Shown here: one piece after another, positions 47,478 through 57,336 of the stretch
Layout of the letters: every line of letters starts with the position of its first letter
Position numbering within the stretch: the stretch's first letter is position 1
DNA from: Castellaniella sp. S9
GTDB taxonomy: Bacteria > Pseudomonadota > Gammaproteobacteria > Burkholderiales > Burkholderiaceae_B
Assembly: GCF_027257175.1 (NCBI RefSeq)
Contig: NZ_JAPFGD010000006.1
Span: 186,001-250,000, forward strand
Direction: 5' to 3'
Length of the DNA stretch: 64,000 nt
Made by a program: the position numbers and the translations under genes
Notes under the pieces: generated by a model
Told to the model about the DNA's origin: nothing
Database searches by the model: none
Seen by the model: only the letters and a program-made list of their open reading frames with translations

Positions 47478-48455
47478 ATGTCCCGTTCCGTGGTCCTGGC
47501 GTATCGCGAATTGCCGCCCGACCAATTGGCCCGCCTGCGCGCCGAACACGAGGTGATCCAGGCCGATCCCTTCCTGCCCGGTCAGGAGGCGGCTTTTTTC
47601 GAGGCCCTGGGCCGGGCCTCGGGCATGATCGGCGCCTTGTACCCGGTGGGGGCGGACCTGCTGGCGCGGGCGCCGGCCTTGCGGGTCGTGTCCTCGATAT
47701 CGGTGGGCGTGGATGCTTACGACCAGGAGGCGCTGGCCGAACGCGATATCGTGCTGTGCCATACCCCCCGGGTGCTGGATGAGACGGTCGCCGACCTCTT
47801 GATGGGCATGGTGCTGGCCATGGGGCGCCGCATTCACGAACTGGCCGACCATGTGCGCGCGGGCCAGTGGGACGGCAACGTGGGGCCGGCGCTTTTTGGC
47901 TGGGACGTGCATGGCAAGACCCTGGGCGTGCTGGGCTATGGGCGCATCGGGCACGCGGTGGCGCGCCGCGCCGCGCTGGGGTTCGGGATGCCGGTGTTGT
48001 ACTGCGCGCGCTCGCCGCGCGACAGCGGCCTGCCCGAGGGCGCCGCGCGGCAGGTGCAGCTGCCCGAGCTGCTGAGCGAATCCGATTTCCTGGTGGTGGT
48101 CCTGCCGCTCAGCGGCGAGACCCGCGGCCTGCTGGGCGAGGCCGAGTTCGCCCGCATGAAGCCCGGCGCCTTTCTGATCAATGGCGGCCGCGGCGCGGTC
48201 CTGCAGGAGGACGCCCTGATCCGCGCCCTGGACGAGGGCAAGCTGCGGGGGGCGGCGCTGGACGTCTTCGCCACCGAACCGCTGCCGCTCGATTCGCCGC
48301 TGCGCACGCACCCCAAGGTGCTGCCCCTGCCGCACGTGGGCTCGGCCACCCACGAGACCCGCCATGCGATGGCGGAAATGGCCACCAGCAACCTGCTCAT
48401 GGCGCTGCGCGGCGAAACGCCCCTGGCGGCATATCCGCTCCGCCGCCGATCCTGA
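47478..48455 (+). CDS. D-isomer-specific 2-hydroxyacid dehydrogenase (GhrB-like)
   Basis: A 325-residue NAD(P)-dependent 2-hydroxyacid dehydrogenase. The nucleotide-binding loop GVLGYGRIGHAVARRA and the catalytic Arg/Glu/His motifs (INGGRGAV, ALDVFATEPLP, LPHVGSAT) are present. It resembles the glyoxylate/hydroxypyruvate/2-ketogluconate reductase branch, and the exact substrate is uncertain. A ribosome binding site (AAGGAG) precedes the ATG. Its last 59 bp overlap the EAL gene on the opposite strand. Confidence 0.9.
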   Translation: MSRSVVLAYRELPPDQLARLRAEHEVIQADPFLPGQEAAFFEALGRASGMIGALYPVGADLLARAPALRVVSSISVGVDAYDQEALAERDIVLCHTPRVLDETVADLLMGMVLAMGRRIHELADHVRAGQWDGNVGPALFGWDVHGKTLGVLGYGRIGHAVARRAALGFGMPVLYCARSPRDSGLPEGAARQVQLPELLSESDFLVVVLPLSGETRGLLGEAEFARMKPGAFLINGGRGAVLQEDALIRALDEGKLRGAALDVFATEPLPLDSPLRTHPKVLPLPHVGSATHETRHAMAEMATSNLLMALRGETPLAAYPLRRRS

Positions 48456-49239
48456 ATGGCGGGTCGGCCGGGGCGGTGCTGCGGCCGCTGTGTGCCGGGC
48501 GGCGCATGCCCGCCCAGTGTTCGATGGGCTGTGGATGACCGAATAGCCAGCCCTGGGCACGGCGGATTCCCTGCCCGTACAGCAAGCCGGCCTGGGTTTC
48601 GGTCTCCACGCCTTCCGCGACGATCGACAGGCCCAAGGCGCGGGCGAGCGCGCATAGGTGATGGATGACCAATGAGGCGGCGGGCGACGTACCGATCCTC
48701 TGGGACAGGCTGCGATCGATCTTGATGCCGTCGAGCTCCAGCATCAATAAGGCCTGCAGGTTTGCGTAGCCGGTGCCGAAGTCATCGATGACCACCTGGA
48801 TGTCCATCGCCCGCAGGGCCTTGATGACGGGGCCGCAGCGCTCGGGGTCCAGGAGGCTGCGCTCGGTCAGCTCGACCGACAGGCGCAGTCGGCCGCCGGT
48901 CGTGTCTTGCAGCGCGCGGAGCATGTCCACCGTGTCGGCGGCCTGGATGTCGGCGGCCGACAGATTGATCGACAACTGGCTGATTGCGGTGGGGACGGCC
49001 CGACAGTCGCGGGCCGCCAGGTCGCACACCCGCTGCGTGATCTCGCGGATCAGGCCGATCTGCTCGGCGATGGGGATGAAGATGTCGGGTCCGACGTCCG
49101 CTCCGGGCCAGCGGATGAGGGCTTCCACGCCGATCTGGCGTCGAGTGCGCAGGTCGACGATGGGCTGGTAGGCGAGGCGGAATTCATCGTGGTCCAGCGC
49201 GTGCCGGAACAATGTTTCGGGCATGGGGCTCGTTGCCAT
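48397..49239 (-). CDS. EAL-domain cyclic-di-GMP phosphodiesterase
   Basis: A stand-alone 280-residue EAL protein predicted to hydrolyse c-di-GMP to pGpG. All key residues are seen: E39-A40-L41, N92 (SINLSA), E123 (ELTE), D152-D153 (IDDFGTGY), K173 (IKID), E209 (EGVE) and Q229. No GGDEF, sensor or membrane segment is attached. The ATG is preceded by AGGAGG and GAGGAA. The upstream leader of about 240 nt connects it to a mer-type operator and a divergent MerR gene, so it is probably MerR-activated. Tn21/Tn501 mer operons also carry an EAL gene (urf2), but this protein is not an obvious copy. Confidence 0.93.
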   Translation of the reverse strand: MATSPMPETLFRHALDHDEFRLAYQPIVDLRTRRQIGVEALIRWPGADVGPDIFIPIAEQIGLIREITQRVCDLAARDCRAVPTAISQLSINLSAADIQAADTVDMLRALQDTTGGRLRLSVELTERSLLDPERCGPVIKALRAMDIQVVIDDFGTGYANLQALLMLELDGIKIDRSLSQRIGTSPAASLVIHHLCALARALGLSIVAEGVETETQAGLLYGQGIRRAQGWLFGHPQPIEHWAGMRRPAHSGRSTAPADPPFRIGGGADMPPGAFRRAAP

Positions 49240-49476
49240 GTTCCTCGCCTTCCTCCTGGAGTCAACCGGCGCTCGCGCCGGCCGGGAATCGGTGCTCGAT
49301 TTCCGGCCTGATGCGGAAGGCCCGGTCTTGGCGGATCGCCGTTATTATTCTGGTCAAATGAATTCCCTGCGGATAAGATACGCATGCGGCGGATGACTGT
49401 GGCATGTGATCTACGTAGCCAGACGCGCCTATTCGAGGGGCTGTTCCCACCTCATGAATTCCTTGTCGTTAAGGGC
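49240..49476 (-). promoter_or_regulatory. Long structured leader of the EAL gene
   Basis: No convincing gene lies here. On the minus strand a near-perfect hairpin has 12-base arms (49308-49297 with 49291-49280, one mismatch, 5-base loop). It is followed by CCGGCG/CGCCGG arms (49281-49266, partly competing with the first). These end next to the AGGAGG ribosome binding site, so they could control translation or stop transcription, although there is no U-run. A TTGACC hexamer near 49352-49357 could be a second, weak promoter. Confidence 0.45.
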
Positions 49477-49508
49477 AATCTAACGTCCGTACCCATGTAC
49501 GGAGTCAA
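49477..49508 (-). promoter_or_regulatory. mer-type MerR operator/promoter directed at the EAL gene
   Basis: Read on the minus strand: -35 TTGACT (49508-49503), dyad CCGTAC-ATGG-GTACGG (49502-49487), and -10 TAGATT (49482-49477) at a 20-bp spacing (TTAGAT at 19 bp). The over-long spacer with a centred dyad is the hallmark of MerR-activated promoters. The TTGACT plus CCGTAC-N4-GTACGG core is that of the Tn21/Tn501 mer operator. It ends 20 bp from the divergent MerR start codon. Confidence 0.88.
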
Positions 49509-49528
49509 GGAATTCGTGAGGTGCTGCA

Positions 49529-49984
49529 TTGAATATCGGCCGTGTTGCAAAGCTCGCTGGCGTGAATGTGGAAACCATTCGCTATTACCAACGCCGTGGC
49601 CTCATTGTCGAGCCGGCCAAACCCTTGGGGACCTACCGCCGATATCCTCCCGAAGTCGTGGCGCGGATTCGCTTCATCAAGCGGGCGCAGGCGCTGGGGT
49701 TTTCGCTCGGCGAGATCGCGGTCCTGCTGCAATCGCCCTCGACCGAAGGGTGCGCCCAGGTGCACGAGCTCGTCCAGGCCAAGATCCGCACCCAGCGCTC
49801 CCAGATCGACGGCCTGACGCGACGCGTGCACACGCTCGAGCGCCTGCTCAGCCAATGCCGGGAGGTCCGCGAGTGCGCCGGCTGCCCCTTGCGCGGGCAT
49901 CTGTCCTGCGTAGAACACTGGCAGGACCTCGGCATCCGGGCGGAGGGCTTCGGCACGATAGCCGCCGCCACGGGCCTCGAGTGA
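49529..49984 (+). CDS. MerR-family regulator with Hg/Pb-sensor cysteine triad
   Basis: A 151-residue MerR protein. The N-terminal winged HTH closely resembles MerR (GVNVETIRYYQRRGL, RYPPEVVARIRFIKRAQALG). A dimerisation helix and metal-binding C-terminus follow. Cysteines C75, C110 and C119 have spacings of 35 and 9, exactly those of C82, C117 and C126 in Tn501 MerR and shared by PbrR; C116 and C127 are extra. Translation must start at TTG 49529: an in-frame stop is at 49517-49519, and GAGG (49518-49521) is well placed. No metal-resistance gene accompanies it. It is divergent from the EAL gene across a mer-type operator. Confidence 0.92.
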   Translation: MNIGRVAKLAGVNVETIRYYQRRGLIVEPAKPLGTYRRYPPEVVARIRFIKRAQALGFSLGEIAVLLQSPSTEGCAQVHELVQAKIRTQRSQIDGLTRRVHTLERLLSQCREVRECAGCPLRGHLSCVEHWQDLGIRAEGFGTIAAATGLE

Positions 49985-54270: not shown

Positions 54271-54297
54271 TGGCCGATCGCCGCAAGCCACGCCGTG

Positions 54298-54325
54298 GGC
54301 CCCGTCGGAAGGACGGGGCCTTTTT
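54298..54325 (+). terminator. Intrinsic terminator between leuD and leuB
   Basis: A perfect 9-bp stem GGCCCCGTC/GACGGGGCC with a GGAAG loop is followed directly by TTTTT (54321-54325). It is a textbook rho-independent terminator placed inside the leu gene cluster, 25 bp before the leuB ATG. Confidence 0.85.
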
Positions 54326-54349: not shown

Positions 54350-55423
54350 ATGAGTTCTCGTATTGCAGTGTTGCCGGGCGACGGTATCGGCCCCGAAATC
54401 GTCGAACAGGCCGTGCGCGTCCTGCGCGCCCTGGACCTCGACCTGGACATCGTCGAGGCGCCGGTGGGCGGGGCCGCCTACGCCCTGCATGGCCACCCCT
54501 TGCCGCCCGACACCCTGGCGCTGGCGCAGAGCGCCTCGGCGGTGCTGTTCGGCGCCGTGGGCGACTGGAAGTACGATTCGCTCGAGCGCGCCCTGCGTCC
54601 CGAACAGGCCGTGCTGGGGCTGCGCAAGGCCCTGGGCCTGTTCGCCAACCTGCGCCCCGCGATCCTCTATCCCGAGCTGGCCAACGCCTCCTCGCTGAAA
54701 CCCGAGGTCGTCGCCGGCCTGGACATCCTGATCGTGCGCGAACTGACCGGCGACATCTATTTCGGCCAGCCGCGCGGCGTGCGGACCCTGGAGGACGGCC
54801 CCTTCAAGGGCCAACGCCAGGGCTACGACACCATGCATTACGCGGAAAGCGAGGTGCGCCGCATCGCCCACGTGGCGTTCCAGGCGGCCGCCGGCCGGCA
54901 GGGACGCCTGTGCAGCGTGGACAAGGCCAATGTGCTGGAGACCTCGCAGTTCTGGCGCGACATCGTCATCGACGTGGCGCGCGAGTATCCCCAGGTCGAA
55001 CTCTCGCACATGTACGTGGACAATGCCGCCATGCAGCTGGTGCGCGAGCCCAAGGCCTTCGACGTGATCGTCACCGGCAACCTGTTCGGCGACATCCTGT
55101 CGGACGAGGCGGCGATGCTCACCGGCTCGATCGGCATGCTGCCTTCGGCGTCGCTGAACGCCAGTCAACAGGGCCTGTACGAACCCAGCCACGGGTCAGC
55201 GCCGGACATCGCAGGGCAGGGCGTGGCCAATCCGCTGGCCACCATCCTGTCGGCCGCCATGCTGTTGCGCTATTCGCTGGATGCGCCGCAGGCGGCCGCG
55301 CGCATCGAGGCAGCCGTGCGGGCGGTGCTGGCGCAGGGCCTGCGCACCCCCGACATCCACGAGCCCGGGACGACGCGAGTCTCGACCGGCCAGATGGGCG
55401 ACGCGGTGCTGGCAGCGCTGTAG
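54350..55423 (+). CDS. leuB: 3-Isopropylmalate dehydrogenase
   Basis: Oxidatively decarboxylates 3-isopropylmalate (357 residues). It has [55 protein letters not shown] and [14 protein letters not shown]. It lies downstream of leuCD but behind a terminator, so its level may be set by read-through. Its 3' end is followed by a mer-type operator for the chemoreceptor gene. Confidence 0.98.
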
Positions 55424-55441
55424 TCCTCTTCCACGGAGTCC

Positions 55442-55473
55442 TTGACTCCGTAGCGTGGTACGGACCTTATGGT
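55442..55473 (+). promoter_or_regulatory. Second mer-type MerR operator/promoter, upstream of chemoreceptor
   Basis: -35 TTGACT (55442-55447), dyad CCGTA-GCGTGG-TACGG (55448-55463), and -10 TATGGT (55468-55473) at a 20-bp spacing (TTATGG at 19 bp). Aligned with the operator at 49477-49508, it is identical over CCTTGACTCCGTA, then GGTACGGAC, and differs mainly in the 4-base dyad centre. The -35 also sits in an ACGGAGTC/GACTCCGT palindrome (55433-55451). It points at the MCP gene about 100 bp downstream. Confidence 0.85.
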
Positions 55474-55575
55474 CCCGGGCGACAACAAGAAAAGCAGGAC
55501 ACAAATCCCCGAGACCCCACCATGGTGCATCGGCGTTCCCGCGCGGGCGGGCGCCGCTGCATAGGAGACCGTTCC

Positions 55576-57234
55576 ATGGCCTTGCTTCACTCGCTGCGCG
55601 TATCCACCCAGTTGATCGGCGGCTTTCTCATCCTCAGCGGCATCGCCGCCCTGGTCGGGGCGGTCGGGCTGTATTCCACGCGGCAGGTCAATACCCTGGC
55701 CGAGACCATGTACCATCGCGACACCATGGGCTTGCGCGACATCGCGCGGGCCGACCAGCAATTGCTGAAGACCGCGCGGGCCGTGCGCGTGGCGGCGCTG
55801 GCGCCGACCGAGGACATCCGCGAGCGCCAGTTCCAGGCGGTGCGGGCTCACCTGGACGACATGGACGAGAGCCTGCTGCGGGCCGCCCAGGCTTTCGATG
55901 CCGGACCTGGGCATCCGCTGGTCGCCCAGGCCCTCGACGCGGCCCGCGCGTACCGCGTCAATATTTCCCGGGTGGTCGAGATCTTGGCCACCGAGCCCCC
56001 GCAACAGGTGCGCAAGTCGGTCGGCATGCTGTATGGCGAGGTCATCCCGGTGGCCGACCGCCTGGATGCGGCCATGGAGCAGCTGATCGGCCACCGGCTC
56101 GAGCAGGCCAGCGCCCTGAGCCTTGAGACCGCGTCCATCCATGCGCGGGCGCAATGGTTCATGATTGGATTGACGCTGGGCGGCATCCTGCTGGGGCTGG
56201 GCATCGGGATGTTGATCACCCGTGGGCTGACGCGTGCCCTGGGCGGCGAGCCGCGCGACGTCGCGCATGCCGCGAATGCCGTGGCGCGCGGCGACCTCAG
56301 TTCCGTGATCGGCACCGCGCGCGCCCACCGCGGCAGCGTGGTGCAGGCGATGGCCCACATGCAGGAATCCCTGCGCCGCATCGTCGGGACGGTGCGCGCC
56401 GGCAGCGACCACATCGCCAGCGGTTCCGAGCAGATCCGGCTGGGGAATACCGACCTGGCGCAACGCACCGAGCGCCAGGCCGCCGACATCACCGAGACTG
56501 CCGCTGCCATGGACGAGCTTTCGAGCACCGTGGCCAGCACGGCGCAGGCCATGCGCGAGGCGGCGCGGCTGTCGGCCGACGCCAGCCGCGCGGCCGAGGA
56601 GGGCGGGCGTGGCATCGAGGACATCGTGCAGACCATGGAGGGCATACGCGAGGCTTCCCGCAAGATCGTCGGCATCGTGCAGGTGATCGACGGCATCGCC
56701 TTCCAGACCAATATCCTGGCCTTGAACGCGGCGGTCGAGGCTGCCCGGGCTGGCGACCAGGGTCGCGGCTTCGCCGTCGTCGCCAGCGAGGTGCGCGCCC
56801 TCGCCCTGAAGAGCGCGGAAGCCGCGCGCGAGATCGCCTCGCTCATCGAAGAGAGCGCCGAGCGCACCAATACGGGCGTGCGGGTGGTGGAGCAGGCGGG
56901 CGCGGGGATCCGCGATCTGGTGGACAAGATCCAGCAGGTCGCCGGCCTCATCGATTCCGTGGATGCGGCGGCGACCGAACAGACCTCGGGGCTGAGCCAG
57001 ATCAATGCCGCGGTGGCGCAGCTCAACAGCATCACCCAGCAGAACGCCGCGCTGGTGCAGGAATCGGCCGCGGCTGCGGCCAGCCTGAACGAGCAGGCCG
57101 TGCAGCTGCTGGACACCGTGCGGGAGTTCCGGATCGAAAAGGACATGGGCGTGGCCACGGTCGCCGCTCGGCCGCCCGCGGGCCCGGCTGGCCCGCCGCC
57201 CGCGCAGCCCCTCGCGGCGCGCCTGCCGGCCTGA
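55576..57234 (+). CDS. Methyl-accepting chemotaxis protein
   Basis: A 552-residue chemoreceptor. TM1 is at about residues 11-33, a four-helix-bundle-type periplasmic ligand domain at 34-193, TM2 at about 194-214, and a HAMP domain follows. The signalling domain has the conserved hairpin tip IDGIAFQTNILALNAAVEAA and methylation-helix sequences. The C-terminus is Ala/Pro-rich and lacks the CheR/CheB-binding NWETF pentapeptide. No che gene is adjacent. It lies behind a mer-type operator, so its expression is probably MerR-controlled. ATG 55576 follows a GGAGA site. Confidence 0.95.
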   Translation: MALLHSLRVSTQLIGGFLILSGIAALVGAVGLYSTRQVNTLAETMYHRDTMGLRDIARADQQLLKTARAVRVAALAPTEDIRERQFQAVRAHLDDMDESLLRAAQAFDAGPGHPLVAQALDAARAYRVNISRVVEILATEPPQQVRKSVGMLYGEVIPVADRLDAAMEQLIGHRLEQASALSLETASIHARAQWFMIGLTLGGILLGLGIGMLITRGLTRALGGEPRDVAHAANAVARGDLSSVIGTARAHRGSVVQAMAHMQESLRRIVGTVRAGSDHIASGSEQIRLGNTDLAQRTERQAADITETAAAMDELSSTVASTAQAMREAARLSADASRAAEEGGRGIEDIVQTMEGIREASRKIVGIVQVIDGIAFQTNILALNAAVEAARAGDQGRGFAVVASEVRALALKSAEAAREIASLIEESAERTNTGVRVVEQAGAGIRDLVDKIQQVAGLIDSVDAAATEQTSGLSQINAAVAQLNSITQQNAALVQESAAAAASLNEQAVQLLDTVREFRIEKDMGVATVAARPPAGPAGPPPAQPLAARLPA

Positions 57235-57290
57235 TTCGGCGGCGCGGACGACGCCCTGCGGCGCCCTGCCTGGGCGCGTACCCGCGGAAG

Positions 57291-57305
57291 GCATTAAAAT
57301 AATGC
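57291..57305. promoter_or_regulatory. Inverted repeat over a -10-like element upstream of asd
   Basis: GCATTA-AAA-TAATGC is a perfect 6-bp inverted repeat enclosing a TAAAAT hexamer (57295-57300), 32 bp before the asd ATG. It may be an operator over the asd promoter. No good -35 was found. Confidence 0.4.
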
Positions 57306-57336
57306 GTTTCGACGTTTTTTTGGGTTGGATGGGTCT

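Follow-up and report, generated by a model that had tools for sequence, protein, structure and literature searches.

A promoter/operator of the MerR type lies upstream of a gene for a methyl-accepting chemotaxis protein (MCP) in the window, by which we mean the whole 64,000-nucleotide stretch of DNA that was analyzed, and a second site of the same design lies between a merR gene and a gene for an EAL-domain protein (Table 1). Judged from its letters and from its retention in relatives, the site before the MCP gene (site 2) appears to be a real, conserved MerR-type operator. We consider it probable that it serves as the MCP promoter under a metal sensor of the MerR family, most likely the product of the neighboring merR gene, which would also read the other operator (site 1). 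The sites and their genes likely form a small behavioral metal regulon. Resistance genes are the main known targets of metal-responsive MerR regulators.

Table 1. Positions of the two operators and the associated genes in the window
Feature	Position	Strand	Characteristics
Stand-alone EAL-domain protein, 280 aa, putative c-di-GMP phosphodiesterase	48397..49239	-	Pfam EAL 4.9e-55
MerR-type promoter/operator 1, facing the EAL gene	49477..49508	-	TTGACT, CCGTA-CATGGG-TACGG, TAGATT, 20-bp spacer
MerR regulator, 151 aa, TTG start	49529..49984	+	NCBIfam TIGR02051 126.2 bits; aligned to solved MerR 5crl, E 5.4e-28
MerR-type promoter/operator 2	55442..55473	+	-35 TTGACT, CCGTA-GCGTGG-TACGG dyad in 20-bp spacer, -10 TATGGT
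Methyl-accepting chemotaxis protein, 552 aa, intact gene	55576..57234	+	Pfam 4HB_MCP_1 8.8e-15, MCPsignal 4.1e-49

The two operators and their genes

Site 2 consists of TTGACT (55442-55447), CCGTAGCGTGGTACGG (55448-55463), ACCT and TATGGT (55468-55473), and its dyad is a perfect one of 5 + 5 bases within the spacer of the -35 and -10 hexamers. On the minus strand, site 1 is made up of TTGACT (49508-49503), the dyad (49502-49487) and TAGATT (49482-49477), and it is placed between merR (TTG start at 49529, plus strand) and the EAL gene (start at 49239, minus strand). Both sites have the MerR-type layout of a dyad in an overlong -35/-10 spacer of 19-20 bp, which is 20 bp in either case. The coordinates and the 20-bp spacing given for site 2 in the original prediction proved exact when the sequence was read again. 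The roughly 100 bp to the MCP gene was measured as 102 bp (end of site 2 to the start codon at 55576), and the separation of about 6 kb between the sites (49508-49477 and 55442-55473) was right. It was an overstatement that the sites differ only in the dyad center, as the -10 region differs too (ACGTTAGATT vs. ACCTTATGGT).

It had also been argued that two such sites are unlikely by chance. This stood within the window, where two dyads were found against 0.00 expected (100 dinucleotide shuffles) and where a longer pattern that fixes 17 bases, searched with up to 3 mismatches, matched sites 1 and 2 alone (0.03 expected). It did not stand for looser matches across the genome: a bare dyad occurred at 3 places, which is not unusual against 10 for a reversed control pattern, and the longer pattern with 3 mismatches gave 6 forward and 7 reverse matches, not above the 5 + 5 of the control. 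The argument therefore relies on relatives and on places where the whole pattern is matched exactly. Exact copies of the longer pattern were present at three places in the 3.8 Mb genome, all of them MerR-type loci and two of them in the window; the control pattern had 0 matches at 0 mismatches and 1 when 1 mismatch was allowed. The third exact copy stands at the start of a transposon-borne mer operon on C33 that includes merR and merT; merA and transposition genes were recognized there by eye.

The MCP combines a four-helix-bundle sensor domain (4HB_MCP) with the MCPsignal domain, and two CheW-domain matches were found in the same genome, so that sensor domain, signaling domain and che partners of a chemoreceptor are all in place. 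Since none of its 552 residues is a cysteine, direct metal sensing by thiols of its own is excluded, and it may instead sense another cue that is useful during metal stress. A sequence search with the N-terminal 194 residues against the PDB gave no match at E up to 1. Site 2 starts 18 bp after the stop codon of leuB (the names leuB, asd and aroC were assigned by eye from translations), and no terminator-like site was found between the two. With this gap and without a terminator, read-through from leu could express the MCP. An intrinsic-terminator-like hairpin of 10 pairs was seen between leuD and leuB (54297-54321).

The EAL protein is 61% and 59% identical to its counterparts in two genomes of the same genus, G004 and G001. 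Its identity to EAL proteins of mer transposons (L076, L140, L141 and L177), for which the Urf2 label rests on gene place, was about 32%, whereas other EAL domains encoded in the same genome reached up to 40%, and it was thus not clearly the closest kin of Tn501 Urf2/Mrp. A collapsed Tn501 mer operon, with the EAL gene as an Urf2 relic, was considered for the merR-EAL pair and rejected as a simple account, because the EAL protein is not particularly near the mer-transposon EAL proteins; the idea is also opposed by the MerR tree described below, which places the window MerR apart from the transposon clade. Neither site heads a mer operon, as the downstream genes encode the EAL protein and the MCP and merT, merP and merA are absent under both sites; the genome carries its mer genes on C33. 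No mer genes were found between or beside merR, the EAL gene and the MCP gene of the window.

Site 1 is flanked by an 18-nt inverted repeat (94% complementary, 49448-49523), and the plus-strand RNA of 49440-49535 folds far better than shuffled sequences (z -5.9). The right arm of the repeat contains GAGGTG, which may be the ribosome site of merR, and the hairpin could mask merR translation on transcripts started upstream. The arms are partly retained in G001 and G004. A block at about 49338-49378, between site 1 and the EAL start, reads TTATCCG...ATTTGACYAGAAT on the minus strand; the window, G001 and G004 all retain it, and it is perhaps a second promoter.

Distribution of the operator and its genes among relatives

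The pattern TTGAYTCCGTAN6TACGG was scanned in 268 genomes of the family and 399 of the order, with 8 places in both lists, and all 123 places were classified by comparison with reference proteins. The exact sites preceded mer genes in 106 cases, genes for heavy-metal P-type ATPases in 6, EAL genes in 3 and MCP genes in 3. Five sites were unassigned, four of them with a divergent MerR gene and one at 52 bases from a contig end. Of the 106 mer sites, 97 likewise had a divergent MerR-like gene. When 369 genomes of the class were scanned, 52 new sites were obtained (41 mer, 1 weak HMA-type match labeled as P-type ATPase, 10 other), and none of these preceded an EAL or MCP gene. The target-gene counts indicate that the exact pattern is mostly an operator of metal-type MerR proteins, and the EAL and MCP cases among the scanned genomes are confined to the genus of the window and one other genus. 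Five of the six P-type ATPase sites (L184, L241, L250, L254, L277, L278) have a divergent MerR gene. Some class-scan sites (L281, L293, L298, L299, L309, L328) were seen by eye to lie before small cysteine-rich, MerC/F-like or glutaredoxin-like genes.

Both operators are present in G001, where the gene order is EAL, operator, merR, MCP, operator, aroC, and where merR and MCP are 64% and 71% identical to those of the window. Hexamer, dyad and 20-bp spacing are intact before the orthologous MCP gene in diverged flanking DNA. The location of this gene differs, as it lies in the leuB-asd gap in the window and elsewhere, not after leuB, in G001. Because G001, G004 and G002 have only a short gap here, and similar sequence (AAGGCATTA) resumes after the window MCP, operator and MCP gene have changed place together. 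Compared with these three genomes, they look like a clean insert next to the leuB 3' end (about 55412-57310, some 1.9 kb); a comparison of two short junction stretches turned up no repeat of 6-14 bases common to both. A second MCP of G001, 49% identical to that of the window, has a perfect dyad (CCGTACCCGGGTACGG) and a poor -35; relaxed dyads of this sort escape a scan with the exact TTGAYT pattern. At L136 (G001:C13), two MCP paralogs thus lie within about 6 kb, with a dyad upstream of each and a good -35 at only one.

The EAL operator adjoins the local merR in three species (window, G001 and G004), and operator 1 is conserved in both relatives. G004 has merR (65%), the EAL gene and the operator, which is the sole exact site in its genome, and no close MCP. 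In G254, which belongs to another genus, merR and the MCP gene point away from each other across a single exact operator. G002 has an MCP gene beside a merR-like gene, where 2 of the 10 dyad positions are changed and TTGACT is missing. Three of the 10 genomes of the genus, the window's included, were found to encode a MerR ortholog of at least 64% identity, three of the 10 have close MCPs (E up to 1e-80), and the distribution of the module in the genus is therefore patchy.

Of the 33 MCP matches, 31 had their upstream regions read, and the exact dyad was present in four of these regions, namely that of the window, two of G001 and that of G254. Among the 26 distant family MCPs without it, L197 has 2 changes, as has G002, and the other 25 have at least 3. 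As the two changes of G002 equal those of L197, G002 alone proves nothing, and its case would rest on position and kinship and not on the mismatch count. The original prediction had named relatives with the MCP and without the operator as a case that would speak against it. For the MCPs of the genus clade, the exact dyad was found before three of the four, and G002 is the exception.

In the MCP tree, from which the L216 row (<450 aa) was left out, the four MCPs of the genus fall together on one side of a branch supported at 100/100, and the G254 MCP is placed elsewhere on a long branch of unsure position; three genus rows of this tree have an unusual letter composition. One clade for all operator-bearing MCPs was accordingly rejected; the genus clade holds, and no single origin is claimed, since the G254 MCP lies outside it. 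To go by the trees, the link between MerR and MCP may have arisen twice. The MerR tree was built from 48 rows of a hand-picked set, without rows <90 aa or with stops, and its rows L026, L027 and L079 are labeled _mer though no site was seen there. The MerR proteins of the window, G001, G004 and G002 fall on one side of a branch (100/100), the window MerR is not a member of the transposon clade, and the G254 MerR is among mer MerR proteins; the rows of the G002 MerR (3.41) and of G254 are long, which leaves their placement unsure. Both trees were midpoint-rooted for drawing only.

The regulator and competing explanations

The window MerR belongs to the MerR family according to Pfam (MerR_1 1.5e-18, MerR 3.5e-13, MerR-DNA-bind 2.1e-12), and the mercury MerR family TIGR02051 was the best of 16 families, with a score that lies below the mercury-specific cut-off of 150.85. 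The single PADLOC match was mad1, at residues 1-46, the HTH part. In the alignment with 5crl, C75, C110 and C119 take the three Hg-ligand cysteine positions; the corresponding ligands of Tn501 MerR are C82, C117 and C126. Pb/Cd sensors have a similar cysteine pattern. A relative of the window MerR (44-53% identical, the closest named MerR proteins) was found at 80 named loci in Pseudomonas, Nitrospira, Comamonas and others, in a collection that may lack close relatives of the window's genome. A site was present at 63 of these loci, giving 65 sites. The merR-merT loci with a 20-bp spacer share the operator layout of the window. However, 64 of the 65 sites precede genes for MerT transport proteins (60 of the 64 in the 20-bp class), whereas the window sites precede signaling genes.

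The spacer class, assigned by the rule of a TA at a fixed distance, bears on which regulator acts at the sites. The mer sites of the family and order fell into the 19-bp class in 82 of 106 cases, including that of the window's own genome, into the 20-bp class in 18 and into neither in 6, while the 20-bp class held all six EAL/MCP sites and all six P-type ATPase sites. MerR proteins as a family accept both 19-bp and 20-bp spacers. The genome encodes a canonical transposon MerR on C33 (308.9 bits, above the PRK13752 cut-off of 261) with a MerT gene, the same half-sites and a recognition-helix region near-identical to that of the window MerR (GVNVETIR[YF]YQR). It is conceivable on these grounds, though we find it unlikely, that site 2 is functional and that this mercury MerR acts there, the MCP and EAL genes being extra members of an ordinary mer regulon. 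However, the operator of the C33 MerR itself is of the 19-bp class, in contrast to the 20-bp class of sites 1 and 2, which would suit the local MerR better, even if the class is not specific to it, being common to the P-type ATPase sites and 18 mer sites. The local merR also adjoins the EAL operator in three species, including G004 with its single exact site, and its product lies outside the transposon clade. Local control with the transposon MerR sharing the sites in this strain may also apply, and both the C33 MerR and another MerR on C2, which adjoins a 2-mismatch site, could bind the window sites.

The nature of the signal was weighed as well. The window MerR has further cysteines at positions 116 and 127, and with its score below the mercury cut-off, the cue might be redox stress or some thiol-reactive compound, in which case the module would be no metal response. 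We regard this as quite unlikely, as the mercury MerR family was best by a wide margin (126.2 vs. 83.5 bits for CadR-PbrR and 57.9 bits for SoxR), the three cysteines occupy the Hg-ligand positions, and the operator class is otherwise found mostly before mer and P-type ATPase genes. Very unlikely in our judgment is that site 2 is a relic, left when the MCP gene was moved or duplicated with its old operator and now expressed mainly by leuB read-through or constitutively. The 18-bp gap after leuB would permit this, and in G002 the dyad before the MCP gene is decayed at best and the neighboring merR-like gene is fast-evolving. It is at odds with the intact hexamer, dyad and 20-bp spacing in the window and G001 despite diverged flanks, and with the G001 gene, which does not follow leuB.

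Proposed mechanism and known systems

MerR proteins sit on a dyad in an overlong spacer with RNA polymerase poised, and the metal-bound form untwists the DNA and allows transcription. By analogy, the window MerR would occupy the dyad of site 2 in its 20-bp spacer and hold RNA polymerase ready, and on binding metal, most likely Hg(II) and next Pb or Cd, it would untwist the long spacer and permit transcription of the MCP gene. The same protein at operator 1 would turn on the EAL gene. More EAL phosphodiesterase would lower c-di-GMP and attachment, more MCP would alter taxis, and the net outcome would be a motile response in place of, or alongside, detoxification. As a broader and more tentative idea, which we see as possible, a MerR of the mercury class has exchanged a role in detoxification for one in behavior, acting as a single metal switch for a c-di-GMP phosphodiesterase together with one or two chemoreceptors in a metal-escape regulon; the MerR-chemoreceptor link would then have arisen at least twice, in the window's genus and in G254, and the window operator and MCP gene would have moved as one cassette.

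If this is true, a toxic metal may be answered by a change in movement as well as by detoxification. With MCP and phosphodiesterase under MerR control, the same class of sensor would steer both the direction of the cell and whether it stays attached, which bears on how motile bacteria travel through metal gradients. It would also offer a small promoter set in which a regulatory link can be traced across species while the target gene relocates.

The original prediction of a MerR regulon linking a metal signal to chemotaxis and c-di-GMP is supported in part, by the operator type and by comparison with G001, G004 and G254. The accompanying remark that no such system was known as described needs a restriction for c-di-GMP. 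The urf2 (mrp) gene is driven by a MerR operator. This EAL phosphodiesterase gene of Tn501/Tn21-type mer operons is metal-regulated; its transcript rises with cadmium, and it is linked to lower c-di-GMP (PMC6629876). On that basis, the metal-c-di-GMP part is not of a new kind. A Tn501 orf2 homologue with an EAL domain is likewise noted in another study (PMC2663772). There, urf2/mrp is part of a resistance operon, whereas the window EAL gene is divergent from merR, where merT usually sits. The window module moreover has an MCP, and none is named for the urf2/mrp operon in the part of its report at hand (PMC6629876).

The chemotaxis side resembles Agrobacterium GW4, where AioR, a regulator responding to a toxic element, drives an mcp gene in arsenite chemotaxis (PMC5335332); the window counterpart is predicted. 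AioR is a two-component response regulator with the consensus GTTN10AAC, whereas the window regulator is a one-component switch of the MerR type, and in GW4 As(III) is oxidized for energy and acts as an attractant, with mcp within the arsenic island (PMC5335332). A MerR-controlled chemoreceptor was not found among the titles and abstract openings of the matches listed for MerR or mer together with chemotaxis in the open-licence literature.

Two of the stretches with the operator pattern, L270 (G399) and L272 (G582), also encode a large multi-domain EAL protein. The pattern lies before MerT in L272 and at a contig end in L270, and these EAL proteins are possibly another link between metal and c-di-GMP.
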